From the NCBI RefSeq assembly GCF_001482285.1, contig NZ_LOEP01000017.1:1-64000 (forward strand): a stretch of DNA of 64,000 nt. Reading direction: 5' to 3'. Origin of the DNA: Haloferax sp. Q22 (GTDB lineage: Archaea; Halobacteriota; Halobacteria; Halobacteriales; Haloferacaceae). Each line of letters begins with the position of its first letter. Position 1 is the stretch's first letter. This document shows positions 12,620 to 38,763 of this stretch, one piece after another. The translations under genes and the position numbers were made by a program. The notes beneath the pieces are model-generated. The model saw nothing but the letters and a program-made list of their open reading frames with translations. It was not told the DNA's origin and did not search any database.

Positions 12620-13870
<1,251 letters not shown>

Positions 13871-21158: not shown

Positions 21159-21236
21159 TGTCGTGTATTGCACATCATCGATGACCACTAAAAAGATTGC
21201 GCCGGTCTGACGCGCCGCAGTCACCGAATGGGGCGG

Positions 21237-21277: not shown

Positions 21278-21295
21278 CCGCTGTCGGCGACCGTC

Positions 21296-21973: not shown

Positions 21974-22001
21974 GAGTGAGTTCGGGAGGTGGTTCGGCGG
22001 G

Positions 22002-22778
22002 TCATAGCAACGTCTCCGCCTCCTCGATGGTCGCGCCCTCGTGGACGATGGCCGAGAGCGCGTCGATGATGGCCGCGGGGTCGTCCCGCTGCCAGACGTT
22101 TCGGCCGAACATCACGCCCTCCGAGCCGGCCTCCACGGCACCGTGGACCATCTCCAGCACCTCTCGGTCCGTCTCGACGGTGGGGCCACCGGCGATGTAC
22201 GTCGGCACCGGCGCGTTGTCCACAATGCGCTCGAAGCCCGTGGGTGGATACGGCGTCTTCAGGATGTCCGCGCCGAGTTCGAAGCCCAGGCGGTTGGCGT
22301 TGACGAGGTAGTCGGTGTCGAACTCGTCGTCGACGCGCTGGCCCCAGAGGGTCGGCTCGACGATAAGCGGAATCCCCGCGTCGTCGCAGTCCTCGGCCGC
22401 GGCTGCGACGAACTCGGCGTTCTCCTTCAGCACGTCGGTGTCCTCCCGGCCGAAGACGAGCGCGACCTTCGCGGCGTCGGCGACCTCGGCGCAGTCTTCG
22501 ACGCTAAACACTTGTGAGTGGATCTCTGCGTTCTCGATGTCGCCCGGCATCGTCGAGTCGTACAGGAGGTCGAGCGTGCCGATAGTGTGCACGTCGGCGG
22601 CGTTGATTCGGTCCTCGAAGCGCTTCAGGAAGGGCACGCTCGCCAGGATACCGTCGGGCCCGGCGTCCAGTACCGTGTCGAGGAGCGCCGCGGGGTCTTC
22701 GAACCCTTCGAGGGAACCCCAATGGAGGCCGTGGTCGATAGCAACAGTCACCGATCGTCCGAGTCGTTGGTCCGTCAT
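22002..22778 (-). CDS. Class I aldolase, FbaB/LsrF/DeoC superfamily
   Basis: 258 residues forming a TIM-barrel aldolase that uses a lysine Schiff base. The N-terminal VAIDHGLHWGSLEGFEDP is the family's Asp-His phosphate motif, the Schiff-base Lys is K174 in GADILKTPYPP, and the C-terminal phosphate site is YIAGGPTV and GVMFGRNVWQ. Relatives include archaeal fructose-bisphosphate aldolase, ADH synthase and LsrF of the AI-2 pathway. In this PTS operon it probably splits or modifies the imported sugar phosphate, the TIM paralogue acting next. The ATG at 22778 is five bases after the yjbQ stop. Confidence 0.85.
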   Translation of the reverse strand: MTDQRLGRSVTVAIDHGLHWGSLEGFEDPAALLDTVLDAGPDGILASVPFLKRFEDRINAADVHTIGTLDLLYDSTMPGDIENAEIHSQVFSVEDCAEVADAAKVALVFGREDTDVLKENAEFVAAAAEDCDDAGIPLIVEPTLWGQRVDDEFDTDYLVNANRLGFELGADILKTPYPPTGFERIVDNAPVPTYIAGGPTVETDREVLEMVHGAVEAGSEGVMFGRNVWQRDDPAAIIDALSAIVHEGATIEEAETLL

Positions 22779-22783
22779 GGCTG

Positions 22784-23209
22784 TTATTGTAGAATCGTCG
22801 TGGTAACCGTTCGCTCGCGCGGGCCGCACAGTTCGAAGAACATGACCTCCTCCCAAGTCCCGAGGTCGAGTTCCCCGTCGCGAAGAACGAGAAGGACCGG
22901 ACGCTTGATCATCGCGGAGATGAGGTGCGCGTGAGCGTTCGGCTGCTCGCCCGCGGTGATGTGGTCGAGGTCGTGGTAGTAGCCCTCGTCCGGGGGGGCA
23001 ATCTCCTTGAACTTATCAATCATGTCGTCGAGAAGCTTCTCTTCGTACTCGTTGGTCGAAAGCGCCGCAGACGTGTGCGGCGTCGACACGTACACGAGCC
23101 CATCGGTCACGCCGAGGTCCTCGATGGTCGCTTCCACCTCGGGAGTGACGCTCAGAATCTCGAACCTGCTGTGGCTCTCGATGGAGAAGCTCTCTGTCTG
23201 TATCTCCAT
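22784..23209 (-). CDS. YjbQ-family protein (UPF0047)
   Basis: 141 residues with the YjbQ signature: PHTSAALSTNEYE, a central DLDHITAGEQPNAHAHL with conserved His and Glu residues, and a C-terminal GTWEEVMFFELCGPRERTV. These proteins form small trimers with a metal site. The E. coli member shows weak thiamine-phosphate synthase activity, but the real role is unknown. It is the first gene of the PTS operon, divergent from the IclR gene. Confidence 0.9.
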   Translation of the reverse strand: MEIQTESFSIESHSRFEILSVTPEVEATIEDLGVTDGLVYVSTPHTSAALSTNEYEEKLLDDMIDKFKEIAPPDEGYYHDLDHITAGEQPNAHAHLISAMIKRPVLLVLRDGELDLGTWEEVMFFELCGPRERTVTTTILQ

Positions 23210-23422
23210 ACACCGTAGCTCAGAGAGTGAGCGTAAATAGTTTTTGCCGACAGTGTTCCGAACACCGCACAGCGGCCCTTAGACACCAAATACCTCGGTT
23301 CCACGCTTCTTGCTCCGCCGCTCGACCGGTATCGACGGTCTGTCCCGCTGTCTCACCGAGTCGAACGGCTGTTCTACTCAATGGAACAAACTATTTACGG
23401 CTGCCTCGACGACACCTCGCTC

Positions 23423-24184
23423 ATGACAGAGAACACGCCCCACCGGGTCGAGACGAGTCGGAAGACGATTCGGGTGCTCGACGCGCTTCGAGAACACGGG
23501 TCGAGTAGCGTCACGTTCCTCGCACGGGAACTCGGGATGAACAAGAGTACCGTCCACAACCACCTCAGTACGCTCGAAGCCGAGAAGTTCGTCGTCCGCG
23601 ACGGGACCAATTACGATCTGAGTCTTCGACTCCTCGAGTTCGGGGGATACGTACAGCACCGCCACTCGCTGTATCAGGTGGCGAAACGCGAGGTCCACCG
23701 ATTGGCGTCCCAGACCGGCGAACTCGCGAACCTGATGGTCGAGGAGTACGGACAGGGCGTCTATCTCGCCTCCGAACAGGGTGAGCGAGCGGTCGATTTA
23801 GACATCTATCCCGGCCTCAGACGGCCGCTCCACGCTATCGGACTCGGAAAGGCGATACTGGCGCACCTCCCTCCCGAGCGCGTCGACGACATCATCGACG
23901 AACACGGCCTTCCCGCGGAAACCGACCAGACAATCACCGACAGAGCGGAACTCGACGAGCAGTTGGCGACGGTCCGTGACCGGGGCTACGCCGTGGACAA
24001 CGAGGAACTCATCCGAGGGCTCCGGTGCGTTGGCGCACCCATCATCGCAAAAGACGGGACCGTCCTGGGTGCAATCAGCGTCTCGCAGCCCGTCAGCCGC
24101 ATGAATAACGAACGGTTCACCGACGAGGTTCCCGACATCGTCCAGAGCGCCGCCAACGTCATCGAACTCCACGCGAACCACTAG
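23423..24184 (+). CDS. IclR-family transcriptional regulator (PTS cluster)
   Basis: About 253 residues from the ATG at 23423, chosen because an AT-rich CTATTTACG lies roughly 25 bases upstream; an ATG at 23381 would add 14 residues. The winged helix is at residues 10-70 (FLARELGMNKSTVHNHLSTLEAE), then the effector domain with GLGKAILAHLPPERVDD and LIRGLRCVGAPI. It is divergent from the PTS operon and upstream of the FGGY kinase, so it probably controls both. The palindrome ATTACA-N10-TGTAAT follows its stop codon by three bases. Confidence 0.9.
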   Translation: MTENTPHRVETSRKTIRVLDALREHGSSSVTFLARELGMNKSTVHNHLSTLEAEKFVVRDGTNYDLSLRLLEFGGYVQHRHSLYQVAKREVHRLASQTGELANLMVEEYGQGVYLASEQGERAVDLDIYPGLRRPLHAIGLGKAILAHLPPERVDDIIDEHGLPAETDQTITDRAELDEQLATVRDRGYAVDNEELIRGLRCVGAPIIAKDGTVLGAISVSQPVSRMNNERFTDEVPDIVQSAANVIELHANH

Positions 24185-24186
24185 AG

Positions 24187-24208
24187 ATTACATGTATATT
24201 TTTGTAAT
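24187..24208. promoter_or_regulatory. Palindrome ATTACA-N10-TGTAAT (shared motif, copy 2)
   Basis: Perfect 6-bp arms and a ten-base AT-rich spacer directly after the IclR stop codon, about 320 bases before the FGGY kinase. Identical arms and spacing occur at 10565-10586. Confidence 0.55.
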
Positions 24209-24530
24209 GCCCGTTCCGACTACGCTTGCAGGCCGCCACCGGCCCCGACGATGCGGTTCAGTCAGAGTGAACCACTGTTCTTAGATACGGAATGGATAGA
24301 ATGCCGACGATAGTTCGTGTTTGTCCGTTTATTTCTCATATTTCGGTGTCAACTCTCGGAATGACAGCGTCATCGAAATGTATGTCAATTGAACGTGCTC
24401 TCGCCCAGATGGTGTGCTAACACTCATCAAATAAACTCCGCTGCGGTCAGTCGGCCACACTGCGCGCTCGCGCGCTCGACGGGTTACTACCCTCGGAAGG
24501 ATTTAACTGCGTCCTACGTGACCCCGTGGT
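24209..24530 (+). promoter_or_regulatory. Upstream region and promoter of the FGGY kinase
   Basis: No gene is seen in these 320 bases. A TATA-like ATTTAA at 24501-24506 lies 25 bases before the kinase ATG, so the message is probably leaderless. The upstream half is AT-rich. Confidence 0.5.
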
Positions 24531-25991
24531 ATGGAGAGCCCGCAACTGGTCGGCGTTCATCTCGGTACTGCGAGCGTGCACGTCGATGTGTACAGCACCG
24601 ACGGCGAACGACTCGCCGGCGGTGAGGCGCCGGTCGCCGAGCAGACGACGCTCGCGTGGGAGCGAGCGCTCCACGAAGCGGCACCGGCGCTGCCACAGAC
24701 CGGTATCGGCTCGGTTGCGAGTACGTCGGGGACGGCCGTACTCGTCGATAAGTACGGCGAGCCGGTGTTCCCGCCGCAGATGTACTTCGATTCCGCGCCC
24801 GAACAGGCATCGAAGCTCCGCGACCTCGACCTGTCCAGTCTCTCGATTAACCAGAACATCGCGTTTTCTCCGACCAGTCCCCTGCCGAAGATTCTGAAGC
24901 TTCGCGCGGAACACCCCGAAAAGTTCCAGCGGGTGGAGTGGATTCTCAGTCCGACGACGTGGCTGTTGTATCGGCTCCGGTTCGACGCGTCGACGCCGTG
25001 GCACGACATCGAGACCGACTGGACGAACGCGTTGAAGTTCGGTGCCGACGTGACGACGCCCCTTCCCACGTGGTTCGAGTCGCTGTTCGAGACGCTCGAC
25101 CTGCCTCGGTCGCTCTTTCCGGCGATTCGACCCCCGGGGTCGTTCATCGGCGTCGCCGACGGTCAGTTAGCCGAGCGGACCGGCTTCGAGGGCATCAAAC
25201 TCTTTCAGGGGCTCACCGACGGCAACGCGTCGGTGCTGGCGAACGGCGGCGTCAAAACGGGGGAGTTCAGCATCACCTTCGGCGCGTCGAGCGTCGTCAA
25301 GTACGTCTCGGAATCCGTCTCGCCGCACCCGGCGCTGTACTACCACCGTCACCCCATCGACGGCTATCTTCCCGGCGCGTCGTTCGACACCGGCAACCTC
25401 CTTCGGTGGTTCTTCGACCGCATCCTCAACTGTACGCCGGAGCGCGGGCTCGAACTCGCCCGACAGGTCCCGAGCGGACAGGGCTACGAAATGTTCCTCA
25501 AGGGCAACCGAAGCCCGTTTTTCGACGCCGACGTCGCGGGGTCGCTCCTCGGTCTCAACTACGACAACTCCCTGTCGACCGAGGAGGTCCACGGCCGACT
25601 GGCGCGCGGGCTCATTACCGGCATCATCCTGACCGAGTGGACCTACATCTCGCTGGTCGAAGAACACTTCGACACCGACATCGACCGCGTGCTCGTCATC
25701 AACGACGGGACGCCGACGCTCGACGGCAACTACGACTGGTGGAACACGCTCCGCGCGTCGATCTGGGACCGTCCGGTCGTCGAGATGGAGCCGCGGACGA
25801 CCGCCGGCGCGGTCATGGCCCCCGCGCTCATCACGTCGATTTACAGCGATGTCGAAACAGCAGCGGAAAACCTCCTCCGAGAGCGTGGCGTTATCGAGCC
25901 GGACCCATCGGTCGGCGCAGACTTCGATACGCAAAAAGAGGCGTACTTCGACCGATGGCGGGACATCGCGGAGTTCTATCAACGGGAGTGA
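24531..25991 (+). CDS. FGGY-family carbohydrate kinase
   Basis: 486 residues. The N-terminal ATPase fold opens LVGVHLGTASVHVDVYSTDG (phosphate 1 motif) and the likely catalytic Asp is in FQGLTDGNASVLANG near residue 230. The C-terminal half has ITFGASSVVKYV (phosphate 2/adenosine type) and TPTLDGNYDWWNTLRASI. Such kinases phosphorylate sugars or polyols such as xylulose, glycerol, erythritol or AI-2; the specificity cannot be read. It lies beside the PTS operon, whose substrate would already be phosphorylated, so it may act on a second hydroxyl or on a cleavage product. Confidence 0.88.
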   Translation: MESPQLVGVHLGTASVHVDVYSTDGERLAGGEAPVAEQTTLAWERALHEAAPALPQTGIGSVASTSGTAVLVDKYGEPVFPPQMYFDSAPEQASKLRDLDLSSLSINQNIAFSPTSPLPKILKLRAEHPEKFQRVEWILSPTTWLLYRLRFDASTPWHDIETDWTNALKFGADVTTPLPTWFESLFETLDLPRSLFPAIRPPGSFIGVADGQLAERTGFEGIKLFQGLTDGNASVLANGGVKTGEFSITFGASSVVKYVSESVSPHPALYYHRHPIDGYLPGASFDTGNLLRWFFDRILNCTPERGLELARQVPSGQGYEMFLKGNRSPFFDADVAGSLLGLNYDNSLSTEEVHGRLARGLITGIILTEWTYISLVEEHFDTDIDRVLVINDGTPTLDGNYDWWNTLRASIWDRPVVEMEPRTTAGAVMAPALITSIYSDVETAAENLLRERGVIEPDPSVGADFDTQKEAYFDRWRDIAEFYQRE

Positions 25992-26411: not shown

Positions 26412-26673
26412 TGTCCGTTTCGACTGCCTTTATTCGTAATCGTGGCATTATAACGGGAAAGACAAGCGAACTATCCACTCGCTCGCGACGCAGGAGACCG
26501 TTTGGAAAGAGGTTCCTCGTGAGCGATTACGACACACCGCTTACCCCCGGGATGGAGACAATGAGCACTATCCGAAACGGTGCTGATGAAACGGGCAACG
26601 ACCCGATACAGAGACGCTTTCTTGATCAGGCCTCGCTTCTGCAATAGTGACCGTTCCGAACCGTGTCCTGAAC

Positions 26674-26709
26674 CCAAATATTTAATCAGGTTGGAAATGG
26701 TGTGTTATC
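26674..26709 (+). promoter_or_regulatory. Promoter of the acid-sugar iclR gene
   Basis: CCAAATATTTA (26674-26684) is followed after 18 bases by TGTTATC (26703-26709), two bases before the ATG. The same two elements with the same 18-base spacing precede the binding-protein gene at 54216. The AT-rich box fits a TATA element and TGTTATC the start region. A TGGAAAT half-site lies between them. Confidence 0.6.
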
Positions 26710-26711
26710 GT

Positions 26712-27476
26712 ATGGCAACCAACAAACCACGAACGCTGGAGGCGGTTGAACGGTCTCTCGAACTCATCGAGGCACTGGTCGAGGAGGACTCGCTAGGGGT
26801 GACGGAACTCTCGGAGCGAACTGGACTTCCAACGAGCACCGTCTACGTGCACCTGCAGACGCTTCGGGAGAACGACTACGTCGTCAAGGAAGGGAGCAAG
26901 TACCGACTCTCGCTTCAGTTCCTCCACTATGGGGGCAAGATTCGAGAACGGCTTCCGGTCTACCGACATGGACGGAAGGTCGTCCACGACCTGGCCAAAG
27001 AGACTGGCGAACTGGTCAATCTCGCGATTGAGGAGAACGGCCGCGGTGTCGTGATATTCATGGCACGCGGCGACAACGCTGCTGTCGACCTCGCACCCGT
27101 TGGGAAGCACTCGTACCTCCATCGACCGGCTTTCGGGCGGGCCATCCTCTCGTGTTTCTCCGACGAGGAGGTGAACGATATCGTCGACAAATGGGGGCTT
27201 CGAGCGGTCACCGAAAACACCATCCATACGCGTGAGGCGCTCTTCGAGGAACTCGAAGCGACCCGAGAGCGCGGGTACGCGATCGAGCGAGACGAAGGAG
27301 ACGTCGGAATCAGCTGTGTCGGCGCGCCGATTCAGGACATCGAAGGAAACCCCGTTGGCGCGATCAGCGTGACCGTCCCCTCGAACAAACTTCGGGACGA
27401 CCGCGTCGAAGAAGAACTCTCACACAAGATTCTCAATGGAACCAACATCATCGAACTCAAGATAGAACACGCATAA
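26712..27476 (+). CDS. IclR-family transcriptional regulator (acid-sugar cluster)
   Basis: 254 residues. The winged helix is at residues 5-65 (LSERTGLPTSTVYVHLQTLREND), and the effector domain contains FGRAILSCFSDEEVNDIV and GISCVGAPIQDIEGNPVGAISV. The ATG at 26712 follows a clear promoter; an in-frame ATG at 26697 falls inside it and is less likely. It is convergent with the pdxA-like gene. TTTCCA-N7-TGGAAA palindromes lie on both sides of the gene. Confidence 0.9.
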   Translation: MATNKPRTLEAVERSLELIEALVEEDSLGVTELSERTGLPTSTVYVHLQTLRENDYVVKEGSKYRLSLQFLHYGGKIRERLPVYRHGRKVVHDLAKETGELVNLAIEENGRGVVIFMARGDNAAVDLAPVGKHSYLHRPAFGRAILSCFSDEEVNDIVDKWGLRAVTENTIHTREALFEELEATRERGYAIERDEGDVGISCVGAPIQDIEGNPVGAISVTVPSNKLRDDRVEEELSHKILNGTNIIELKIEHA

Positions 27477-27545: not shown

Positions 27546-28553
27546 TCACGCTCGCTCGATGGCGACGCGAGCGGCGGTTCGAATCGCGTCGACCATACTG
27601 GACTCGGAGGCGATTCCCTGTCCCGCAATATCGAACGCCGTCCCGTGGTCAACACTCGTTCTGATGATCGGCAGTCCGACCGTCATGTTGACGCCGCTGA
27701 CCGTGTCGGTGCTGTCGAAGCCGAGCATCTTGATCGGGATATGTCCCTGGTCGTGGTACATCGAGACGACGCAGTCGTACGCGCCAGCGGCTGCCTTGAC
27801 GTAGACGGTGTCCGGCGGAATGGGCCCTTCGGCGTCGATACCAGCCTCACGGGCCTGTTCGACGGCCGGTTCGATGGCGTCGTCGTCTTCCGTCCCGAGG
27901 AGTCCCCCCTCGCCGGCGTGAGGATTCAAGCCAGCGACGGCGATCGTCGGGTCGTCGATTCCCAGGTCGTGTAACCCCTGATTAGTGACAGCGATGGTGT
28001 CGAGGACGTTCTCGGTTGTCACGAGGTCGCACGCCTCGCGAAGCGGGACGTGTGTGCTCACGTGCGTGACGCGAAGCCCCCCCTCGATAAGCATCATCGA
28101 ATAGTTATCTGTCTCGGTGTACGCCGCGAGCATCCCGGTGTGGCCCGCGAATTCGCTTCCCGCCTGGGCTGTCGCTTGCTTGTGAATCGGGGCCGTCGCG
28201 ATGGCGTCGATGTCGCCTGCGATGGCGAGTTCGATCGCGCGTTCGATGTACTCAAGCGAGGCGCGGCCGTACGCCTCGTCGATTTCGCCGTAGGTCAGCG
28301 ACGCGACGTTGTCGAGATCGAGTACGAACAGCGTCGATGGGTCGGATCGAACGTCTGCGACGGACTCGACCGCTTCGACCGACAGGTCGCTATCACACTG
28401 GTCGACTGCGTGCCGAATCACGTCCGCGTCGCCGATGACCACGAGGCTTGCGTCCTCGGTCACCTCGGGTGCTGCTTCGACGATTATTTCGCTTCCGATG
28501 CCACCGGGGTCACCCATCGTCACGCCGACGAGAGGTCGCTCTACTGCTGTCAT
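27546..28553 (-). CDS. PdxA2-like 4-phospho-acid-sugar dehydrogenase (decarboxylating)
   Basis: 335 residues of the PdxA family. VGVTMGDPGGIGSEII opens the fold, and three metal-binding His residues are visible in TAPIHKQA, GLNPHAGEGGLLG and MYHDQGHIPIKML. The neighbouring DUF1537 kinase is decisive: PdxA2 proteins paired with it oxidise and decarboxylate 4-phospho-D-threonate or -erythronate to dihydroxyacetone phosphate, instead of making pyridoxal phosphate. The start codon at 28553 overlaps the kinase stop by one base, so the two are translationally linked. Confidence 0.87.
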   Translation of the reverse strand: MTAVERPLVGVTMGDPGGIGSEIIVEAAPEVTEDASLVVIGDADVIRHAVDQCDSDLSVEAVESVADVRSDPSTLFVLDLDNVASLTYGEIDEAYGRASLEYIERAIELAIAGDIDAIATAPIHKQATAQAGSEFAGHTGMLAAYTETDNYSMMLIEGGLRVTHVSTHVPLREACDLVTTENVLDTIAVTNQGLHDLGIDDPTIAVAGLNPHAGEGGLLGTEDDDAIEPAVEQAREAGIDAEGPIPPDTVYVKAAAGAYDCVVSMYHDQGHIPIKMLGFDSTDTVSGVNMTVGLPIIRTSVDHGTAFDIAGQGIASESSMVDAIRTAARVAIERA

Positions 28554-29791
28554 CACGGCGTACCGATGAAGTCGAGGCAATTAACTATTGTCGTCGGGTC
28601 ACCGAACGACCCCGCCTTGGTCACGAGGAGGGTCTCGTCGGCCGCTCCACCGCGAATTCGGGTGAGTGGAATGCCGTCGGCGAGTTCGATTCCCGTCAGT
28701 TCGAGTGACTCCGCGTCGAGTTCGTCGAGTACCGCGATGGTCGTCGAGCCACCAGTCGTGAACAGACCGGTCAACGGCCGTGTCTCGTGGACTCCGCGGA
28801 CGGTCGCACGCAACGTCGTCGCGATTCGATCTTTGACGGCGTGCTCGTCGAGTCCGAGCGCGTCCGCGTTCCGGGTCACTACGTCGACGGCGCGAGAAGA
28901 CGGAGCCGACGTGACGATGGCGAATCCGTGAGCGCGCTGCGCGGCGAGAACCGGGCCGACAGCTTCGGACGCCGCTTCCGTTGGACGCTCGAGCATCGTC
29001 TCGGGGTCCAGCGCAACGATCGCTTGGTCCGGAACCCGCGCGAGTTGCCCGAACGAAGTCTCGCTGACGCTCCCGACCACGCCGAGGACCGATTGGCCCC
29101 CACTTACTGCGGTCGAACGCGACAACGCCCCCGCGAGTCCGCCACTCCCCGCATAGGCGACGGTGGCTGTGAGTCGGCTGGCGGCGTCGGCAAGCGACCG
29201 AAGGTGGGTGTGAGTTGTGGCGTCGGCGACGACGACTACCGGCCCGTCGCGGTTGCGGTCTATCTCGGCGAGTTTCGACCGGACGTGTCCTGTTCCCTTG
29301 GTTACGACGTCCAGCGGGAGTGTTTCGACGGGATACGCGAGCGATGAGAGCAGCTCGACCACCGACGACGTTGCAGGCAGGTTCTCTGAGTCGGTAAGCG
29401 TCTCGAGCACGGGGTCACCGTCGACCAACTGGACGCCGTCTTCGGTCGTCCGCCCGTTACTGGGAAACGCCGGTGCAAGCAACAGGATGTCGGGCGTCGC
29501 GGCGTCGAGCACCGCCGCCAGTTCGTCGGTGACGTTCCCGCGGAGCGTGGAGTCGAGCTTGTTGTACAGAAGCGTGGTGTCGTGTTGTGACACGGCGGCG
29601 CGAACCGTTTCGTACGCCGCTGCCGGTGGTGCTTCCCGTGTCTCCGTATCGACGACGAGGACGTCGCAGCTCGTCGGTGCGCTTGGGTCGAACACCACGT
29701 TCGTCCGATACCCACGGCTGGCGAACTGGCTCCCGGTGTCGTTCGCTCCGGTGATATCGTCTGCAATAACAACTGCGTTCAACTCGGTCAT
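28553..29791 (-). CDS. Four-carbon acid sugar kinase, DUF1537 family (DtnK/DenK/OtnK-like)
   Basis: 412 residues. The N-terminal domain begins VVIADDITGANDTGSQFASRG (substrate-binding D-D motif) and has YNKLDSTLRGN. The C-terminal nucleotide domain contains FTTGGSTTIAVLDEL and DETLLVTKAGSFGDP. Members phosphorylate D-threonate, D-erythronate or related C4 acid sugars with ATP, and PdxA2 then converts the product to DHAP. The start (MTELNAVVIADD) is divergent from the binding-protein gene with about 105 bases between, so a shared control region is likely. Confidence 0.9.
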   Translation of the reverse strand: MTELNAVVIADDITGANDTGSQFASRGYRTNVVFDPSAPTSCDVLVVDTETREAPPAAAYETVRAAVSQHDTTLLYNKLDSTLRGNVTDELAAVLDAATPDILLLAPAFPSNGRTTEDGVQLVDGDPVLETLTDSENLPATSSVVELLSSLAYPVETLPLDVVTKGTGHVRSKLAEIDRNRDGPVVVVADATTHTHLRSLADAASRLTATVAYAGSGGLAGALSRSTAVSGGQSVLGVVGSVSETSFGQLARVPDQAIVALDPETMLERPTEAASEAVGPVLAAQRAHGFAIVTSAPSSRAVDVVTRNADALGLDEHAVKDRIATTLRATVRGVHETRPLTGLFTTGGSTTIAVLDELDAESLELTGIELADGIPLTRIRGGAADETLLVTKAGSFGDPTTIVNCLDFIGTP

Positions 29792-29896: not shown

Positions 29897-31324
29897 ATGG
29901 CATCGAACGAATGCCGAGACAGTGATAGGACCGCTACGAGACGCCGAACCGTCCTCAAGGCCGTGGGGGGCTCAGCAGTCGCAGGGCTTGCAGGCTGCGT
30001 TGGCGGTGGTGGGGGAGACGGCTCGGGCTCAGGCTCGGGTTCGGGATCCGGCGACGGAACCACCACGGGGACCGTGAACGAAAACGGCTGGCCTGACTAC
30101 AGCGGGCGCGAGATGCGCGTTGTCACCGACGAGTGTTCGGACGTGTTCAAGCGCGTCTGGGAAGACGCGTTCGCCGAGTTCGAAAACAAGACGGGCGCGT
30201 CCGTCACCCTCGAATGCGGCGCAGAGGGACAGAGCATTCAAGAGCGTATCATTCAGCTTATTCAGTCCGGCAACCCGCCGGAGCTGTTCCCGACATCGGT
30301 GACGCAATCGACGCAACTCCAGAACCAAGGGACGCTCGCTCCGATGACCGACTTAGTCGAGACGGTCACGGACCGATTAGGCATGCCCCACGAGCGGTCG
30401 TTCCTCGAACGCGACGGCGAACACTACACGATTCCCTTCTTCGCGATTCCGTACCTGCAGTGGTACCGAGAGGACATCGCCGAGTCGAAACCAGACTCCT
30501 GGGAGAACATGGTTGGCTGGATGGAGGAAGCCAGTGGTTCGGACGAGGTGACCGACGCGACGCTGCTTCCGTGGTCGACGCACTACTGTAGCGAACTCGT
30601 CGCTCAGTGTTTCCTCCGAAGTAACGGTGCGAACATGGCGACTCGAAACGATGACGGTGAGGTTGTGGTCTCGATCGACCAAGGAGAGAACCGCGAGCGC
30701 TGGATCGAAATGCTCGAATTCCGCAAGCAGCTCCAGCCCTACACCGGCCCCGGTTCGGACATCGGCTGCGAAGAGCGGATCAACGCACTTCATACTGAGT
30801 CGTCGGCGCATACGACGTACGGTGGTGCGCGGCCGAAGATTCAGTCCATCGAACGCGAGCGTGACTTCCACGAGCATATTCGCGCCGCTCCGATCCCGGG
30901 GCCGGACGGACCGGGGAAGTTCTTCGGCGTCATCAAGTCCATCTGCTCGTTCCAGGGGTCGAACACGGACATGGCCAAGACGTTCCTCGATCAGTTCATC
31001 TTCCAGCCGGAGTACTACGAGCGCTACATCAACATTCAGAACGCGCCGCTGTACCCGAAACAGAAAGAGGAGATCGACATGCGCGAGAAGCTTCCGGACT
31101 CCTACACCGACGCGGATATCGAGGCGTGGAAGTCGGTGACCGACGCGATTCCACCGGCACACGAGACGAGTCCGCCGAACCCGTACGTCGATTCCATCTT
31201 CACGACTCGGCCGGGCTCGACTGCCATCTCACTCGTGATCAGCGAGGACATGGACCCAGGCAAGGCAGTCGACCAAGTCGCAGCGAAGGCTCGCGAGTCG
31301 CTGAACCAGGCGAAGGGGCCATGA
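29897..31324 (+). CDS. ABC transporter sugar-binding lipoprotein (CUT1/SBP_bac_1)
   Basis: 475 residues. A Tat signal (TRRRTVLKAVGGS), lipobox LAGC and a short Gly/Ser linker anchor the protein outside the membrane. The mature domain is a type 1 sugar-binding fold with FENKTGASVTLE, QSGNPPELFPTSVTQ, VPYLQWYRED-like YLQWYREDI and ALHTESSAHTTYGG. It probably feeds the permeases at 33615 and 34556 and the ATPase at 35597, although a lyase and a reductase gene lie between. A TATA-like TATTTACA sits about 25 bases before the ATG. Confidence 0.88.
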   Translation: MASNECRDSDRTATRRRTVLKAVGGSAVAGLAGCVGGGGGDGSGSGSGSGSGDGTTTGTVNENGWPDYSGREMRVVTDECSDVFKRVWEDAFAEFENKTGASVTLECGAEGQSIQERIIQLIQSGNPPELFPTSVTQSTQLQNQGTLAPMTDLVETVTDRLGMPHERSFLERDGEHYTIPFFAIPYLQWYREDIAESKPDSWENMVGWMEEASGSDEVTDATLLPWSTHYCSELVAQCFLRSNGANMATRNDDGEVVVSIDQGENRERWIEMLEFRKQLQPYTGPGSDIGCEERINALHTESSAHTTYGGARPKIQSIERERDFHEHIRAAPIPGPDGPGKFFGVIKSICSFQGSNTDMAKTFLDQFIFQPEYYERYINIQNAPLYPKQKEEIDMREKLPDSYTDADIEAWKSVTDAIPPAHETSPPNPYVDSIFTTRPGSTAISLVISEDMDPGKAVDQVAAKARESLNQAKGP

Positions 31325-31460: not shown

Positions 31461-32396
31461 ATGAAACACGAACTACACGGCGTAAATCCACCGCTTATCA
31501 CCCCGCTCGACGCCGACGGTCAGTTGGACGAAGACGCGTTCAGAGATGAGATTCGCTACCATCTCGGTGCTGGCGTCTCAGGCGTCGTCGTCGGCGGAAG
31601 CACCGGCGAAGGGATGCGAATGACCGACGACCAACTCAAGCAACTCTACGACGTCGCGGTCGACGAAGTGGACGGCGACGTTCCCGTGGTCGCGGGAGTC
31701 ATCGCACGACAGACGCGCGAGGCCACCGTAAAAGCGGAACTGGCTCGTGACGCGGGTGCGGACTTCATCATGGCGATGCCACCGACGGGGTACGTCGGCT
31801 CGCACATGGCCGACAACGACTCGATCCGCGACTACTACCGCGCAATTGCGGACGTTTCCGAGTTACCAATCGTCATCTACGACGTCATGTCGTTGCTCGA
31901 CCTCGACGCGGAACTCGTCGGTGACCTCGTCCGGGACATCCCGGAAGTCGTCGGCATCAAAGTCAGCAGCACGCTCGGCAATCTGACGCACTATCTCCGA
32001 GCCATCGGCGATGACGGCTTCGTGCTCGGCGGGATGAGCATCGGCCAGTTCCCAACGTACACATTGGGTGTCAACGGCGGGATCGTGGGTATCAGTAGTG
32101 TCTGTCCACGCATCTCCGTCCAAATCTGGGAAGCCACACAACGTGGCGATTACGACCGTGCCCGAGACCTTCATTTCGCGCTCGTCCCGCTCATCCGCGC
32201 CGCGATGGAGAACTACGAATCGAACTTCCCCGCTGGCGAGAAAACGGCGATCGACGTGCTCGGACGCGATGCGGGCTGTCTCTTCCATCCCTTCGACGGA
32301 GTCGAAGACGGTGACGAGAAGCGCGCGGCCATTGAGGACGCAGTCTCACAGATGCACGACCGAGGAACGAGAGAAATCGTCCACGCCGACGATTAG
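31461..32396 (+). CDS. DapA/NanA superfamily lyase
   Basis: 311 residues forming a class I Schiff-base TIM barrel. The pyruvate-binding loop is GGSTGEGMRMT (residues 46-55 region), the catalytic Tyr is Y140 in VIYDVMS, and the Schiff-base Lys is K167 in VVGIKVSS. Family members are dihydrodipicolinate synthase, N-acetylneuraminate lyase, and the 2-keto-3-deoxy acid sugar aldolases and dehydratases. In a catabolic cluster the last group is the most likely. It follows the binding-protein gene by 136 bases. Confidence 0.88.
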   Translation: MKHELHGVNPPLITPLDADGQLDEDAFRDEIRYHLGAGVSGVVVGGSTGEGMRMTDDQLKQLYDVAVDEVDGDVPVVAGVIARQTREATVKAELARDAGADFIMAMPPTGYVGSHMADNDSIRDYYRAIADVSELPIVIYDVMSLLDLDAELVGDLVRDIPEVVGIKVSSTLGNLTHYLRAIGDDGFVLGGMSIGQFPTYTLGVNGGIVGISSVCPRISVQIWEATQRGDYDRARDLHFALVPLIRAAMENYESNFPAGEKTAIDVLGRDAGCLFHPFDGVEDGDEKRAAIEDAVSQMHDRGTREIVHADD

Positions 32397-32657: not shown

Positions 32658-33455
32658 TTACCAGTCGACCCAGTCTCGGTCGGCGATCCGAAGCTCGCGG
32701 TCGATGTCGTCGATCCGAGCAAGTTCTTCCGCGGTGAGTTCGATTTCCGCGGCTTCGAGATTCCCACGGATGTGCGCCTCGCTCGACGCCTTCGGGATGG
32801 GATTAACGCCGTCTTTCGAGAGCAGCCACGCGATGGCGACCTGTGCTTGGCTGAGGCCGTTTTCGCGGGCGATGTCGGTGATCTCCGGAATCTCGAAGAC
32901 CCTCCCGCGGGCGAGCGGGGAGTAGGCGACGACTTCGATGTCGTGACCGCGACAGTACTCGAGGAGGTTCGGTTGCGGGAGGAGTGGATGAAGCTCGACC
33001 TGGTTGACGTCGATTGGGGCGTCGCAGGCCGCCTGCGCCTCGTCCAGCAGTTCGGGAGTGAAGTTACTGACACCGATATGCCGAATCAGTCCCTCGTCTC
33101 GGAGTTCCGAGAACGCGCCGAGCGTGTCGGCGGCGTCGTAGTCCTTCGCTGGCCAGTGAACGTAGAGGATGTCGAGATAGTCCACGCCAAGGCGGTCGAG
33201 GCTCTCGGCGACTGCGTCGGGGACCCGGTCGGACGCGAGGTCGCCCGGCCAGAGCTTCGTCCCAAGGGTAATCTCCTCTCGGTCGACGTCCGCTCGTTCG
33301 ATTCCATCGCCCACGTAGGCTTCGTTTTCATACAGCTGTGCGGTATCGATGTGTCGGTAGCCCATCTCTAGTGCCGTTCGTACGCTTTCGGCACAGGCCT
33401 CCGGATCAGTGTTCTGCCACGTCCCGAAGCCTACTCTTGGCTCGCTAAATACCAT
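32658..33455 (-). CDS. Aldo/keto reductase
   Basis: 265 residues, slightly short for the family but complete. The catalytic tetrad is visible: Asp37 and Tyr42 in HIDTAQLYENE, Lys67 in LGTKLWPGD, His100 in LYVHWPA. The NADPH end carries ISNFTP-like GVSNFTPELLDEA and IPKASSEAHIRGNLEA. It resembles the 2,5-diketo-gluconate reductase-like group, which reduces sugar-derived carbonyls. It is the only minus-strand gene within the ABC gene run, so it may be a later insertion or separately controlled. Confidence 0.88.
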   Translation of the reverse strand: MVFSEPRVGFGTWQNTDPEACAESVRTALEMGYRHIDTAQLYENEAYVGDGIERADVDREEITLGTKLWPGDLASDRVPDAVAESLDRLGVDYLDILYVHWPAKDYDAADTLGAFSELRDEGLIRHIGVSNFTPELLDEAQAACDAPIDVNQVELHPLLPQPNLLEYCRGHDIEVVAYSPLARGRVFEIPEITDIARENGLSQAQVAIAWLLSKDGVNPIPKASSEAHIRGNLEAAEIELTAEELARIDDIDRELRIADRDWVDW

Positions 33456-33614
33456 GATCGTCAGTACGTTCTCGGGTGATCCTATAATAATCTATGGGGG
33501 GACGCGAGAAGACAGTGGATCGGGTGACTGGAGTCTTCGTTCGTCTCTCGAACAGCTGTGACTGTACTGATGGGAAGGTTTTTACCGTTGGTTCATGAAG
33601 AATTGGCACGTTCC

Positions 33615-34559
33615 ATGAGTACAATCAACAAGCATGGCTCCCGGGCTCGAGAGTTACGAGACGAGGTGTTCGAGTTCCTCTCAAAAAAGAAGGTATTGGC
33701 CGCGCTGACGATTCTCCCGCCGATGCTACTCTTCACGTTCGTGAATCTCGTTCCGATTATCGGCGTCATCGGCGCGAGTTTCTTCAACATCAACGCCTTC
33801 TCGAACGAGTGGCAGTGGATCGGGACTGCGAACTTCGAGTCGCTCCTGACGAGCGACTCGTTCTACGATGCGCTCAACCGGTCGGTGATATACGCGGGTG
33901 GCTCGGTCGTCATTCAGGTGATTTTCGGGACGACTCTCGCGCTATTGCTCAACCGGTCGTTCAAGTTCGTGAATATCGCGCGCACGTTCGCAATTCTCCC
34001 GTACCTCATCCCGAACGCCGTCATCGGCTTCATGGCGCTCTGGATGCTCAATTCGCAGTGGGGAATCGTCAACCAGCTCGCCGTCCAGATCGGTCTCACC
34101 CAAGGGTACGTGTCGTTCTTCGGAGACCAAGGATCGGCGATGCTCGCGGCGATTCTCACGAGTAGTTGGAAAGACTCTATCTTCGTCACGGTGATGGTGC
34201 TCGCTCGACTGCAGGCTATCCCCGAGAGCTTCTATGAGGCGGCGAAGATGTCCGGTGCGACGGCCTACCAGCGATTCCGAGATATCACCCTGCCGAACCT
34301 GAAGGGTGTGTTCTTTATCGTGCTGCTGCTGCGTGCGGTGTGGATGTTCAACACCTTCGACTACATCTGGGTCCTCACGCAAGGAGGACCGCGAGGAGCG
34401 ACGACGACCGCACCCATCTACGCGTACAACATCGCCTTCGGGACGAGTCGGCTCGGCATCGCCGCGGCCGTTTCGACCGTGCTGTTCCTCGTCTTGTTGG
34501 TCGCGGCAGTGTTGTACTTCCGGATCTTCGAGCCGTCTGAGGAGGTGCGTGCAGAATGA
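33615..34559 (+). CDS. ABC sugar permease, MalF-type (CUT1)
   Basis: 314 residues with six predicted membrane segments. The EAA loop (EAAKMSGATAYQRFRDITLPNL) marks the ATPase contact, and WVLTQGGPRGATTTAP is a family hallmark. The ATG at 33615 starts a basic N-terminus; an in-frame ATG at 33558 would add 19 residues. It ends overlapping the next gene by four bases (ATGA). Confidence 0.9.
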   Translation: MSTINKHGSRARELRDEVFEFLSKKKVLAALTILPPMLLFTFVNLVPIIGVIGASFFNINAFSNEWQWIGTANFESLLTSDSFYDALNRSVIYAGGSVVIQVIFGTTLALLLNRSFKFVNIARTFAILPYLIPNAVIGFMALWMLNSQWGIVNQLAVQIGLTQGYVSFFGDQGSAMLAAILTSSWKDSIFVTVMVLARLQAIPESFYEAAKMSGATAYQRFRDITLPNLKGVFFIVLLLRAVWMFNTFDYIWVLTQGGPRGATTTAPIYAYNIAFGTSRLGIAAAVSTVLFLVLLVAAVLYFRIFEPSEEVRAE

Positions 34560-35476
34560 GCATTCGTAACGACATCGGACGCAAGTGGTCGAACGTCAAA
34601 CAGCGGACCGTGGACAAGCCGTGGAACCCGCTGACGCACCTCTCGCACCAGGGTCGGTCGACGGGGTGGAACTTGACGCTGAACGCCCTGTTGGTGCTGC
34701 AGCTGTTCGTCGTCATCTTCCCCATCTTCTGGATGGTCAGTACGGCGCTACGGCCGACGGACATGATTTACAACGTTCCGCAAACGCTGCTACCGCAGAT
34801 ATTCTCCGTCGAGAACTTCGTCAACACGTTCGAGGGGACGAACTTCCCGACGTACTTCAAAAACAGCATGATTCTCTCGGTGGGCGTCGTCGTGGTCACG
34901 ACATCGATGTCGACGCTGGCTGGCTACGGGCTCACGCGCATCGACATCCCACACAAGAAGACGTTCGCGAGAATCATTCTTTTCGGGTACATGTTCCCGC
35001 AGATTCTGCTCGCGATCCCGATGTTCATCTTCTGGAGTCGCATCGGCCTCATCAACAGCCACCTCGGCCTCATCTTGGCGGTTACTGCGACCGCCTTGCC
35101 GTTCGGCATCTGGTTGATGTGGAAGTTCTTCCAGAACGTTCCCATCTCGCTCGAAGAGTCCGCCCAGATGGCGGGCGCGTCGCCGTTCCGGGCGTTCTAC
35201 GAGATCGCACTACCGATGGCGAAACCCGGTGTCATCGCGGTAGCCATCTTCTCGTATGCAACGGCGTGGGGTGCGTACACGATTCCCCGCATCATCATGC
35301 CGACGAGTGAAAACTGGCCGCTCACCGTGGGTATCCACATGTTCACGATTCAGAAACAGACTCTCTGGGGAGAGGTCATGGCCGCGAGCGTGATGATGGT
35401 AATCCCGGCGTTCATCTTCGTCTTCGCGCTCCAGAAGTACCTCCTCGAAGGGTTCGAAGTCGGCGGACAGATGTAA
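34556..35476 (+). CDS. ABC sugar permease, MalG-type (CUT1)
   Basis: 306 residues with six predicted membrane segments. It has the EAA loop EESAQMAGASPFRAFYEIALPMAKPG and the early periplasmic WMVSTALRPTDM. It forms the permease dimer with the preceding protein. Confidence 0.9.
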   Translation: MSIRNDIGRKWSNVKQRTVDKPWNPLTHLSHQGRSTGWNLTLNALLVLQLFVVIFPIFWMVSTALRPTDMIYNVPQTLLPQIFSVENFVNTFEGTNFPTYFKNSMILSVGVVVVTTSMSTLAGYGLTRIDIPHKKTFARIILFGYMFPQILLAIPMFIFWSRIGLINSHLGLILAVTATALPFGIWLMWKFFQNVPISLEESAQMAGASPFRAFYEIALPMAKPGVIAVAIFSYATAWGAYTIPRIIMPTSENWPLTVGIHMFTIQKQTLWGEVMAASVMMVIPAFIFVFALQKYLLEGFEVGGQM

Positions 35477-35596
35477 CAGTCGACCACGCGGTCCTTCGAC
35501 ACCCCTCTTATTTTCGTCCGTTCTGGCAGCAGAGATCCTGCGTTCACCGAAACGTATAATGTCCCCGTCGAATAACGTGTGAGTGGTTGTCAATCA

Positions 35597-36697
35597 ATGA
35601 CTATTGAGGTTAGCTCCCTGCGAAAAGAATTCAGTTCGCCGTCCGGAACGATCACGGCCGTCGATGGTATCGACTTCAGCATCGACGAAGGCGATTTCTT
35701 CACGTTCGTCGGCCCGTCCGGGTGTGGGAAGACGACGACGCTCCGTTGTATCGCGGGCCTCGAAACGCCGACGAGCGGGAGTATCCGGTTCGACGGCGAG
35801 GACATGACGGGGAAACCGGCTCACAAGCGGAATCTGGCGATGATGTTCCAGAACATCGCCCTCTACCCACACATGAAGGTGAAAGAGAACATCTCCTACC
35901 CGCTGAAAGTCCGGAACGTTCCGAAGCAAGAGCGACACGAGAACGCCGAAGAGGCCGCGGACATCATGCAGATTCGAGAACTACTGGAGAAGTACCCCGG
36001 CGAACTCAGCGGTGGCCAGCAACAGCGGGCGGCCTTAGCGCGAACAATCGTCCACGAACCGGAGGCGTTCCTGATGGACGAGCCGCTGAGCGACCTCGAC
36101 GCGAAGCTGAAAGTCGAGATTCGCAAGGAGATTCAGCGCGTCCACGACCGCGTAAAGAAGCCGACGATCTACGTGACGCACGACCAGGAGGAAGCGATGA
36201 CGATGAGCGACCGTATCGCGGTGTTCAACGACGGTGGTATCGAACAGATCGGGACGCCGGACGAACTCTACCAGCGACCTGCGAACCGGTTCGTCGCGAA
36301 CTTCATCGGCAACCCATCGATGAACTTCTTCGACGGGACTATCGACCGCGCGAGCGGTGAGACGGCCATCGTCGCCATCGACGGGCAAGACGTCGAACTC
36401 CAAGTGGTCGACTCAACGGCGCTCAGCGTCGGCGACGAAGTCACGGTTGGCGTCCGCCCCGAAGACGTCACGCTTGACCGGAACCACGGAGACCTCGAAG
36501 GCGAGATCACTCTCATCGAGCGAATCGGAAAGCAGATGCTGGCAACTATCGAGGGACCGCAGGGCGAGGTTCGGGTGACGCTCCCGGCCGACAACTCCTA
36601 CGAGAAGGGCGAGGAGATCCGCCTCGCTATCGAGGCCCGGGCGACGCACCTCTTCGGCTCCCGGGACGACGTCGTGACTCGCGGACCGGACGTGTGA
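35597..36697 (+). CDS. ABC transporter ATP-binding protein, UgpC/MsmX type
   Basis: 366 residues. Walker A is GPSGCGKTTTLR near residue 40, the signature is LSGGQQQRAALAR, Walker B is AFLMDEPLSDLDAKL, and the switch His is in YVTHDQEEAM. A C-terminal OB-fold (TOBE) domain follows, with VGVRPEDVTL. This type energises CUT1 sugar importers and is the clear partner of the two permeases. The ATG at 35597 starts TIEVSSLRKEF. Confidence 0.92.
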   Translation: MTIEVSSLRKEFSSPSGTITAVDGIDFSIDEGDFFTFVGPSGCGKTTTLRCIAGLETPTSGSIRFDGEDMTGKPAHKRNLAMMFQNIALYPHMKVKENISYPLKVRNVPKQERHENAEEAADIMQIRELLEKYPGELSGGQQQRAALARTIVHEPEAFLMDEPLSDLDAKLKVEIRKEIQRVHDRVKKPTIYVTHDQEEAMTMSDRIAVFNDGGIEQIGTPDELYQRPANRFVANFIGNPSMNFFDGTIDRASGETAIVAIDGQDVELQVVDSTALSVGDEVTVGVRPEDVTLDRNHGDLEGEITLIERIGKQMLATIEGPQGEVRVTLPADNSYEKGEEIRLAIEARATHLFGSRDDVVTRGPDV

Positions 36698-36708: not shown

Positions 36709-37542
36709 ATGAGTTGGATGCGACAGCGTGATTCAGTCGTGCTCGACCGAGTCCGGAACCCAGCGTACACAGGCGAGAACCGGTGTCTCCCCTGTACTGG
36801 CGTAAACGCCGCCTTGGCCATCGCACTCGCTGGACTCGTCGCGTGGGTTGGATTGCCACTCCTGAGTGCGGTCGTCCTCGCGGTGTCGGCCGCAGTCATC
36901 AGCCTCCGCGGGTATCTGATACCCGGCACACCGACGCTGACACAGCGATACCTTCCCTCGCGGGTGATGGCGTATTTCGAACACGGGCCGGAACAGACGG
37001 CCGTCGATTCGCACTCGGAGCCAGTCGACGTGACCAACGCCGACCACGACACCCTCCTCGTCGACAACGGCGTACTTGTACCGTGCGACGGTGGGGCCGA
37101 TTTCTGCCTGACGGACCGTTTTCACGCCGCGTGGACGAACGCCATCGACACGATTGATTCCGACGTGGACACCGCGCTCTCGGTGTCCGCGTTCGTCGAT
37201 GCTGATCCGTCTGAGGTGGTTGTCGACGAATCGGCTGCTGACTTCGCCATCTCCGTCGATGGGGCACACGTCGGTCGGTGGCCATCTCGAGCCGCCTTCC
37301 TCGCCGACGCGGCCGGTGCGGTAGCGCTGGCCACCGAGCTCCCGAACTGGCACGATCTGTCTTCGAGAGTACGAGGCGTGGCGCTCGGTGAGCTTCGACT
37401 GTTCCTCGAACGCTGCCCAACCTGCGACGGTGAACCGAACATTCAGCAGCGAACTGAAGAGACGTGCTGCCGAACGCGAACCATCACGACGATGCGATGT
37501 ACGGACTGCAACGCGACGTTTGTCGAAGTCGTCGGTGCGTAG
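36709..37542 (+). CDS. Unrecognised membrane protein with Cys pairs
   Basis: 277 residues, no family recognised. An N-terminal Cys pair (NRCLPCTGVN, near residue 27) precedes two adjacent hydrophobic segments (about 33-68). A long acidic soluble domain follows, then a C-terminal zinc-ribbon-like part with CPTC (CPTCDG), a CC pair and CTDC. It starts 11 bases after the ATPase stop and so is probably co-transcribed with the sugar importer. A metal-binding or redox role is possible, but nothing in the sequence proves it. Confidence 0.75.
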   Translation: MSWMRQRDSVVLDRVRNPAYTGENRCLPCTGVNAALAIALAGLVAWVGLPLLSAVVLAVSAAVISLRGYLIPGTPTLTQRYLPSRVMAYFEHGPEQTAVDSHSEPVDVTNADHDTLLVDNGVLVPCDGGADFCLTDRFHAAWTNAIDTIDSDVDTALSVSAFVDADPSEVVVDESAADFAISVDGAHVGRWPSRAAFLADAAGAVALATELPNWHDLSSRVRGVALGELRLFLERCPTCDGEPNIQQRTEETCCRTRTITTMRCTDCNATFVEVVGA

Positions 37543-37605: not shown

Positions 37606-38763
37606 ATGTTAGCGTCACCCAAGAGCGTCGAGAGTGCCGAACACACTATCGTCTACCACAGTGATGATGAGTTCTCAGCGTGGCCGTTCAACGGCGGGAT
37701 GTGGAAGACCGATGACGGCGTCGTCGTCGGGTTCATCAACCACGACTGTGATTACTCAGTTCCGGAGAATCTCCACGACGCTAAGGTCGTTCGCTACGGG
37801 AGCGTCGTCTCTCCGACCGAGAATAAGCAGAATCAGTTGAGCCACGCGCGTATCGAGACCTACGGGTCCATCCGTGCGATGCGCACCACCGACGGCGGCG
37901 CGACGTGGACGGACGACGGCGTCATCTCGGACAACGTCGAGACCTCTGAACAGGTCCTCTACAACGAGATTCCGGACATCGAGGCGCACGACTTCTCGAA
38001 TCAGAATACGCTCATGGCCTGTTGGTCTTCGCCGCATTCGGCTGCCTCTGACGCGGTGCCGTGGGTGAAACTCTCCGACGATGGGGGGGACTCGTGGAGC
38101 GATGCGAAACGGCTCCCCATGTTCGACTTCGAGCGAATCCAGGGCCGCCCGTCGTACATTACTCGTGAAGATGGCACCCTCCTGTTGATGCTAACGGGGA
38201 AAACCAGCACCGACCCCCACGACGTGCCGATCGTGTACGCGTCGTTCGATGGGGGACAAAACTGGTCGTTCCTGTCGCAGATCGGTGGGAGCGAAAAGTA
38301 CCGCATGCTGTGTCCCTCGCCAGTACTGCTTGACGACGGGACGCTTGTCGCGGCCGTGCGCTGTAAGATTTCCGTCGACTGTGAGTGGACCGAGATCTAT
38401 CGCTCAACTGACGACGGGCGAAACTGGACGTTCGTCTCGCGAGTGAACGACCTTGGCGCACCGAGCAAACTCTTGGAGTACGATGGTTCACTCGTGTGTA
38501 TCTACGGATATCGCCATCCACCGTACGGTATCCGCGCACGTGTGAGTCACGACGACGGTGCCACGTGGAGCCGCGAGTGGATTCTCCGTGACGACGGTGC
38601 GAACTACGACCTCGGCTACCCGCGCGCGGCCGTGCTCGACGACGGGACGATTCTCGCCACGTACTATTTCAACCAACAGGACGATGAAGTCGCCGTCGAT
38701 GGTGGTCCTCGACACATCGCGGCCACCAGATTCGACCCCGAGGAACTACTCTCCAACCGGTGA
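37606..38763 (+). CDS. Cytosolic Asp-box beta-propeller protein, sialidase-superfamily fold
   Basis: 385 residues with five Asp-box motifs (S/T-x-D-x-G-x-x-W type): TTDGGATW, SDDGGDSW, SFDGGQNW, STDDGRNW and SHDDGATW, spaced along the chain as in six-bladed sialidase propellers. There is no signal peptide, so it acts inside the cell. The N-terminal Arg motif of true sialidases (F/Y-R-I-P) is replaced by PFNGGMWKTDDG, which argues against sialic acid hydrolysis. It is probably a glycoside hydrolase or lyase that acts on the imported compound. A TATA-like CTTTAATA lies near 37570. Confidence 0.8.
   Translation: MLASPKSVESAEHTIVYHSDDEFSAWPFNGGMWKTDDGVVVGFINHDCDYSVPENLHDAKVVRYGSVVSPTENKQNQLSHARIETYGSIRAMRTTDGGATWTDDGVISDNVETSEQVLYNEIPDIEAHDFSNQNTLMACWSSPHSAASDAVPWVKLSDDGGDSWSDAKRLPMFDFERIQGRPSYITREDGTLLLMLTGKTSTDPHDVPIVYASFDGGQNWSFLSQIGGSEKYRMLCPSPVLLDDGTLVAAVRCKISVDCEWTEIYRSTDDGRNWTFVSRVNDLGAPSKLLEYDGSLVCIYGYRHPPYGIRARVSHDDGATWSREWILRDDGANYDLGYPRAAVLDDGTILATYYFNQQDDEVAVDGGPRHIAATRFDPEELLSNR

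Follow-up and report, generated by a model that had tools for sequence, protein, structure and literature searches.

The gene at positions 37606-38763 (forward strand) of the window, which denotes the whole stretch of 64,000 nucleotides of Haloferax sp. Q22 DNA analysed here, encodes a protein with the Asp boxes of a sialidase and without the arginine of the sialidase R-I-P motif, raising the question of what reaction such an enzyme would catalyse and on which substrate. It starts with ATG, encodes 385 residues and is present in one copy in the Haloferax sp. genome. A pseudogene was dropped from consideration, as the frame is open and the product is 95% identical end to end in Haloferax massiliensis and Haloferax denitrificans. 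Close copies were found only in Haloferax among haloarchaea (3 of 292 genomes, with weak partial matches in seven more) and only in Cohnella among 348 Bacilli searched, the homologue of the Bacillota species Cohnella xylanilytica having approximately 53% identity. The presence in both genera suggests lateral transfer of the gene. This protein, called the WPxN protein after its clade signature, may be a sialidase-superfamily enzyme that cleaves ketosides of Dha or of a Kdo-like acid in the cytosol, a reading for which the balance is about even.

Fold and active site of the WPxN clade

The five Asp boxes and the propeller described in the earlier note were borne out by the sequence, by Pfam and by the structure prediction for which that note had called. 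The boxes, all on the forward strand, are TTDGGATW (residues 94-101, 37885-37908), SDDGGDSW (157-164, 38074-38097), SFDGGQNW (213-220, 38242-38265), STDDGRNW (267-274, 38404-38427) and SHDDGATW (314-321, 38545-38568), and the cut-offs of both BNR_2 (61.6 bits, cut-off 31.4) and BNR/Asp-box (31.3 bits, cut-off 27) were passed. The AF2 model, built with nine sequences (mean pLDDT 78.2, pTM 0.83), is a six-bladed sialidase propeller that is weak at residues 54-85 (pLDDT below 50) and 143-147. Against GH33 sialidases it scored Z about 29-31, at approximately 14-20% identity, and against 5hx0 Z 34.1 over 322 residues, a similarity that rules out a chance occurrence of Asp boxes.

The nearest solved structure, 5hx0, is Dfer_1899 of Dyadobacter fermentans and has no assigned function. 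It belongs to the same family as the WPxN protein, since a profile from 27 relatives matched it over its full length (E 3e-82, compared with approximately 1e-15 for true sialidases), and the WPxN clade, defined here, falls within this family by the full-length match and by common invariant residues. The two proteins share the C-terminal motifs GYRxxPxGIRAR, DLGYP and YYFN, but 5hx0 has F-P instead of W-P-x-N and N-E at the Glu position, and is therefore placed in an outer clade. The literature search returned no paper describing 5hx0 and none on the WPxN clade.

Residue correspondences to sialidases rest on alignments throughout, with site names (Arg1 to Arg3, Glu and Tyr) that follow the Micromonospora sialidase and Neu2. 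The yardstick was a true sialidase from the neighbourhood of a relative (L143:14194-15750; Y-R-I-P motif; E 7e-145 to 4bbw), to which the WPxN protein aligned in an HMM-HMM comparison with a probability of 98.4% (E 7.8e-15). This local alignment omits the N-terminal part, and the Arg1 site was judged by eye from the register of W-P with I-P. The place of the sialidase Y/F-R-I-P reads F-S-A-W-P-F-N-G-G-M-W, with A25 at the Arg1 position and the clade signature W-P-F-N-G-G-M-W (37681-37704, forward strand) at the site of R-I-P. The earlier note was correct that the Arg is missing and mistaken in naming PFNGGM as its replacement, as PFNGGM sits just after the Arg position. Arg1 loss is no quirk of the Haloferax gene, because W26, P27, N29 and W33 are present in 36 of 36 clade sequences and Arg at the Arg1 place in none of 27 aligned sequences.

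At the sialidase Glu place, the HMM-HMM and clade alignments put C236 (38311-38313, forward strand, as are the following residues), a position with Cys in Haloferax and Cohnella, Met in all 34 other clade members and Glu in all six outer relatives. R252 (38359-38361) is in register with Arg2, Y338 (38617-38619, in D-L-G-Y-P) is in register with the nucleophile Tyr, and R303 (38512-38514) lies three residues ahead of P306, which aligns to Arg3; R252, R303 and Y338 are invariant (36 of 36). Like GH33 sialidases such as 4bbw, 1eur and Neu2, the WPxN protein has a six-bladed propeller with Asp boxes and keeps Tyr and Arg2 in register, but Arg3 is out of register and, as read from the alignments, the clade has lost Arg1 and the sialidase Glu. 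An ordinary sialidase with a displaced motif was rejected because both are missing across the whole clade. This agrees with the reaction other than that of an ordinary sialidase expected in the earlier note, whose description of a protein without the sialidase Arg motif holds for Arg1 and understates the retained Tyr and Arg2. Of the Arg triad, Tyr and Asp that the note named as evidence against its reading, the complete set is absent, although the protein retains the Tyr and one Arg of the triad.

Twenty residues are invariant in 36 of 36 clade sequences from archaea and several bacterial phyla, counted after two near-identical Haloferax rows were taken out. They are W26, P27, N29, W33, H80, R93, D96, W101 and R181 in the N-terminal half, and R252, R303, S314, G318, W321, R328, D335, G337, Y338, Y353 and Y354 in the C-terminal half. 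The sialidase Asp acid/base loop has no conserved Asp and an invariant His, in a region where both alignment and model (pLDDT below 50) are weak. This His is H57 in the 27-sequence alignment and H80 in the 36-sequence alignment (Haloferax numbering), and the outer clade has His at that column in the former and not in the latter.

If the protein cleaves ketosides, R252 and R303, perhaps with R328, would hold the C1 carboxylate, Y338 would attack C2 or serve as acid, the invariant His would stand in for the sialidase Asp as acid/base, and D335 may fill the role of the lost Glu. The loss of Glu, Arg1 and the exact Arg3 is unexpected in an enzyme that depends on binding a C1 carboxylate, and counts against a ketosidase.

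The gene cluster in Haloferax

The WPxN gene is preceded by a gene for a 277-residue protein of no known family (36709-37542, forward strand), syntenic in two other Haloferax. This protein has CxxC-type pairs near its C terminus, and its gene adjoins the WPxN gene in all three Haloferax genomes. Next come the forward-strand genes of an ABC importer: a CUT1/MalK-type ATPase (35579-36697) and two permeases (34556-35476 and 33558-34559), the latter recognised by tblastn to permeases beside the WPxN genes of Devosia (L077) and Rhizobium (L078), of which the L077 permease is annotated as a carbohydrate ABC permease. The solute-binding protein of the importer (29897-31324, forward strand) was assigned by family match. 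The adjoining sugar importer, conserved with the WPxN gene, supports the imported substrate proposed in the earlier note, as does the N terminus its claim that no secretion signal exists, since inspection by eye revealed no hydrophobic, lipobox or twin-Arg stretch.

The catabolic genes of the cluster, assigned by family match, encode an aldo/keto reductase (32658-33455, reverse strand), a putative reducer of D-threuronate to D-threonate, a DHDPS/NanA-family protein (31461-32396, forward strand), a putative pyruvate aldolase for Dha, a DUF1537 four-carbon acid-sugar kinase (28553-29791, reverse strand) and a PdxA-family dehydrogenase (27546-28580, reverse strand), a putative D-threonate 4-phosphate dehydrogenase, followed by an IclR-type regulator (26580-27476, forward strand). 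Gene order in H. denitrificans (L123) is the same, kinase, PdxA gene and regulator included, and among 292 haloarchaeal genomes a close kinase ortholog (77-100%) occurs in the three with the WPxN enzyme at 95-100% and in no other.

The best model for the kinase by far was that of D-threonate kinase (NF047819), with 238.9 bits against a cut-off of 450, compared with 102.4 bits for the 3-oxo-tetronate kinase model. The PdxA protein passed TIGR00557 (376 bits, cut-off 290.35) and reached 307.2 bits against the D-threonate 4-phosphate model, below its cut-off of 583. A role of this gene in vitamin B6 synthesis was rejected, because no PdxJ was found in the Haloferax genome and archaea possess only the alternative route to B6 (PMC9997740).

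Adjoining the acid-sugar cluster at 18658-25991 is a PTS sugar cluster, here in an archaeon, with PTS EIIA- and EIIC-type, triosephosphate-isomerase-like, DeoC-type aldolase, IclR regulator and FGGY-type kinase genes. The PTS, triosephosphate-isomerase-like, DeoC and FGGY genes (18.6-26.0 kb) were left out of the pathway, as they lie beyond the regulator and no counterpart was seen in the Cohnella cluster. A glycerate-kinase-type gene (DUF4147/MOFRL; 10786-12114, reverse strand) lies approximately 14 kb past the cluster.

Recurrent neighbours and two downstream modules

Neighbourhoods were compared at 39 clade loci, comprising three from Haloferax, one from Cohnella, ten from Armatimonadota, eight from alphaproteobacterial plasmids, five on short viral-collection contigs and 12 Bacteroidota loci from eight genomes; the clade motif is not visible in two of them, L053 (cut short) and L077 (two frames). 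A DHDPS-family gene lies inside the fetched stretch at 12 loci from nine lineages (Haloferax, Cohnella, Devosia, Rhizobium SSA_523 and five Bacteroidota genomes), with a further weak match in L145 (64 bits). None was found at E 1e-8 in the other 27 loci (26 counting L145), several of which have short flanks and which include all ten from Armatimonadota and six of the eight alphaproteobacterial ones, nor in any of seven outer-clade loci.

This distribution bears on whether the protein is an enzyme at all. A non-catalytic binding protein, or an unrelated function with a coincidental neighbourhood, would accommodate the majority of loci without an aldolase, but is quite improbable given 20 invariant residues across archaea and several bacterial phyla and the same partners in unrelated lineages.

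In Cohnella, the WPxN gene occurs with DHDPS, three dehydrogenases, a second sialidase-superfamily gene and a CUT1-type importer, and the cluster continues with a DUF1537 kinase, PdxA and a PrpR-type regulator. In Devosia (L077), an importer and DHDPS are beside the WPxN gene. The annotated frames of DHDPS (6203-7105) and of the WPxN gene (11611-12699) on this plasmid are shortened or split, reflecting broken genes or sequencing errors. On three other plasmids, all rhizobial, a SemiSWEET sugar carrier gene is directly 5' of the WPxN gene (L074:11712, L075:11337 and L126:11702). Settings in Armatimonadota differ, with a CUT1-type importer and an enolase-superfamily gene in L056 and an RraA-type gene, from another pyruvate aldolase family, in L059, and the function of the WPxN protein may be different in this phylum.

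A second combination is present in three Bacteroidota genomes (L135, L136 and L141), in which DHDPS, a sodium-solute symporter and the WPxN enzyme are accompanied by an FGGY pentulose kinase and an L-fucose isomerase; in L141 these genes form a single same-strand row. In Rhizobium SSA_523 (L078), the neighbours are an ABC importer, DHDPS, a GntR regulator, a pentulose kinase (654 bits) and a divergent gene resembling isomerases, whose assignment to fucose isomerases is weak (one Pfam domain, 29.7 against a cut-off of 29.3). FucI-type isomerase and pentulose kinase thus occur together in these four of the 39 loci, and are over cut-off in L141 and L135 (680 and 704 bits for the kinase against a cut-off of 408.7, and 1077 and 1076 bits for the isomerase against 775).

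These two modules, both lacking at most clade loci, would fit two different substrates. Fucose isomerases also act on D-arabinose, and an isomerase and pentulose kinase beside a pyruvate aldolase fits the cleavage of Kdo to pyruvate and D-arabinose. The reverse reaction is described for NanA-type enzymes, which join pyruvate and D-arabinose into Kdo (PMC4016182). The kinase and PdxA module of Haloferax and Cohnella would suit Dha, a C7 diacid, converted to pyruvate and D-threuronate, then D-threonate and dihydroxyacetone phosphate. The stereochemistry was derived manually from the sugar names, D-lyxo denoting OH groups left, left and right at C4-C6. Dha minus C1-C3 is D-threuronate, the reduction of which therefore gives D-threonate, the substrate of DtnK, and the same rule turns Kdo into D-arabinose, as is known. 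DtnK is reported as a D-threonate kinase (PMC10971088).

In a tree with the outer clade as outgroup, whose clade rows cover part of the 39 loci, most rows being without either module, the Haloferax and Cohnella enzymes split first from the remaining clade members. This branch was supported by 99/100 in one tree, in which the row of L057 was out of frame, and by an SH-aLRT of 99 in a second, with that row corrected, made with a quick method. Enzymes linked to kinase and PdxA and those linked to isomerase and pentulose kinase are on opposite sides of it, as two substrates would predict.

The first guess of the earlier note, uronic- or aldonic-acid glycosides or a lyase reaction, found no support so far, as the neighbours mismatch a 2-keto-3-deoxygluconate route. 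One alternative is that the sialidase fold here serves a lyase or hydrolase of the uronate type, feeding an aldolase of the 2-keto-3-deoxygluconate type, since the invariant His, Tyr and Arg would also suit beta-elimination. The DHDPS family includes enzymes of that type, and the propeller lyases 7esk and 7esl (rhamnose-glucuronate lyase) are in the Foldseek list (E about 1e-9). That match is weaker than to 5hx0 (TM 0.51 against 0.69), propeller lyases of the BT3686/GH145 type likewise gave only weaker fold matches, and a uronate route has no place for the C4-acid kinase and PdxA, nor for the FucI and pentulose kinase of the relatives. Uronates are disfavoured because the neighbouring catabolic genes match the breakdown of 3-deoxy-2-ulosonic acids, of the sialic-acid kind, and we consider this alternative unlikely.

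In Neu5Ac catabolism, a sialidase, a transporter and NanA follow the logic seen in the WPxN clusters, with a propeller ketosidase, an importer and a pyruvate aldolase, but the WPxN clusters have pentose or C4-acid genes downstream and no ManNAc route. Haloarchaeal glycans can contain nonulosonic acids, and with a fold match of Z about 30 to GH33, the protein could be a sialidase that uses an atypical site to release N-acetylneuraminic acid or some bacterial nonulosonic acid. This is very improbable, given the missing Arg1 and Glu and the absence of ManNAc-type genes among the named families of the window cluster; moreover, the organisms of L135 and L143 keep true sialic-acid genes as separate neighbours. 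A NanM-SSS fusion and a NanA-type gene adjoin the WPxN gene in both loci, and L143 also has a true GH33 sialidase.

These same neighbourhoods would suit an enzyme with an accessory task, a mutarotase or lactonase for example, that acts on free 3-deoxy-ulosonic acids in the way NanM acts on sialic acid, rather than a glycosidase. The retained sialidase Tyr and Arg2 argue against such a role, which is rather unlikely, and an attack on glycans is suggested by the signal- or lipobox-like N termini (by eye) of the Bacteroidota WPxN proteins, by nearby sulfatases and by up to three clade copies together. Three WPxN enzymes lie within 7.3 kb with a sulfatase at L136:6123-13394 (forward strand), which suggests that the substrate at that locus is an algal glycan, sulfated and Kdo-like.

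A candidate route for Dha and its substrate sources

Dha, or 3-deoxy-D-lyxo-hept-2-ulosaric acid, is a seven-carbon relative of sialic acid found in pectin RG-II and green-algal walls. In the proposed pathway, whose reactions and substrate are deduced from directly observed fold, clade, residue conservation and recurrent gene order, the ABC importer would take up an oligosaccharide ending in a 3-deoxy-2-ulosonic acid, most likely Dha, which the WPxN enzyme would free. The DHDPS/NanA-type protein would split Dha into pyruvate and D-threuronate, the aldo/keto reductase would convert the latter to D-threonate, and the DUF1537 kinase and PdxA protein would lead through D-threonate 4-phosphate to dihydroxyacetone phosphate. 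Known D-threonate catabolism (DtnK of DUF1537 and PdxA2) has the same kinase and PdxA pair as the window and Cohnella, but the window set scores below equivalog cut-offs and its aldolase and reductase come before.

The ketosidase reading is favoured by the recurrence with DHDPS in nine lineages, by two chemically complete downstream sets and their separation in the tree, by the shared distribution of the enzyme and the close kinase ortholog, and by the single-row gene set of the Bacillota locus L099 described below. Counting against the Dha route are the 27 of 39 loci without DHDPS, the kinase and PdxA scores below the D-threonate cut-offs, and the Haloferax and Cohnella aldolases, which are only approximately 27-28% alike. 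That the Haloferax and Cohnella enzyme opens a complete, undescribed Dha pathway and its sister enzymes a Kdo pathway, as a new His/Tyr ketosidase family without Arg1 and Glu, is put forward tentatively, as a possibility. No described route for Dha catabolism was found in the open-licence literature.

Kdo and Dha occur side by side in RG-II (PMC12168206) as well as in the scales of prasinophytes and the theca of Tetraselmis (PMC10762512), with 54% Kdo and 17% Dha in T. suecica walls (PMC7693365). GH143 cuts Dha from RG-II (PMC6811678), and the CAZy GH33 list includes Kdo hydrolase and KDNase (PMC9120202). GH143 would share Dha as substrate with the WPxN enzyme, but is a different family. Haloferax may encounter Tetraselmis-type algae in brine. 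As Kdo and Dha are major Tetraselmis wall sugars and parts of RG-II, the hypothesis is of interest in naming every enzyme of a Dha-eating route and in tying the orphan solved fold 5hx0 to a chemistry. If true, it would show that the sialidase scaffold can carry a second type of active site, and the Dha pathway would be a natural substrate source for D-threonate kinases.

The DUF1537 kinase and PdxA pair extends beyond the WPxN clusters, and its settings there lend the Dha route independent support. In a survey of 40 DUF1537 loci (20 from Bacilli and 20 from haloarchaea, counting L123, which is the window cluster as it stands in H. denitrificans), PdxA adjoins the kinase in 39, the exception, L096, being at a contig end. 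DHDPS is near the pair in L106 and L119, and in L099 (Bacillota) a PrpR-type regulator, DHDPS, iron alcohol dehydrogenase, DUF1537 kinase and PdxA are in one row, the DHDPS matching that of Cohnella at 51% and the alcohol dehydrogenase at 64%. No DHDPS was seen near the pair in the other 36 loci, so the pair often serves other acid-sugar sources. Close by in L099 is a relative (43%) of the second sialidase-superfamily gene of Cohnella. A second sialidase-superfamily clade, in which N-H-A replaces R-I-P, is present in two Bacillota (L003:11325-12581 and L099:12651-13829, both reverse strand), adjoining DHDPS, iron alcohol dehydrogenase, DUF1537 kinase and PdxA genes, and may fill the role of the WPxN enzyme. 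In the haloarchaeal row of DUF1537, PdxA and DHDPS genes, a gene for a 434-residue protein lies between PdxA and DHDPS (L106:11202-12506, forward strand); its product may be a racemase or an epimerase acting on a different C4-acid precursor.
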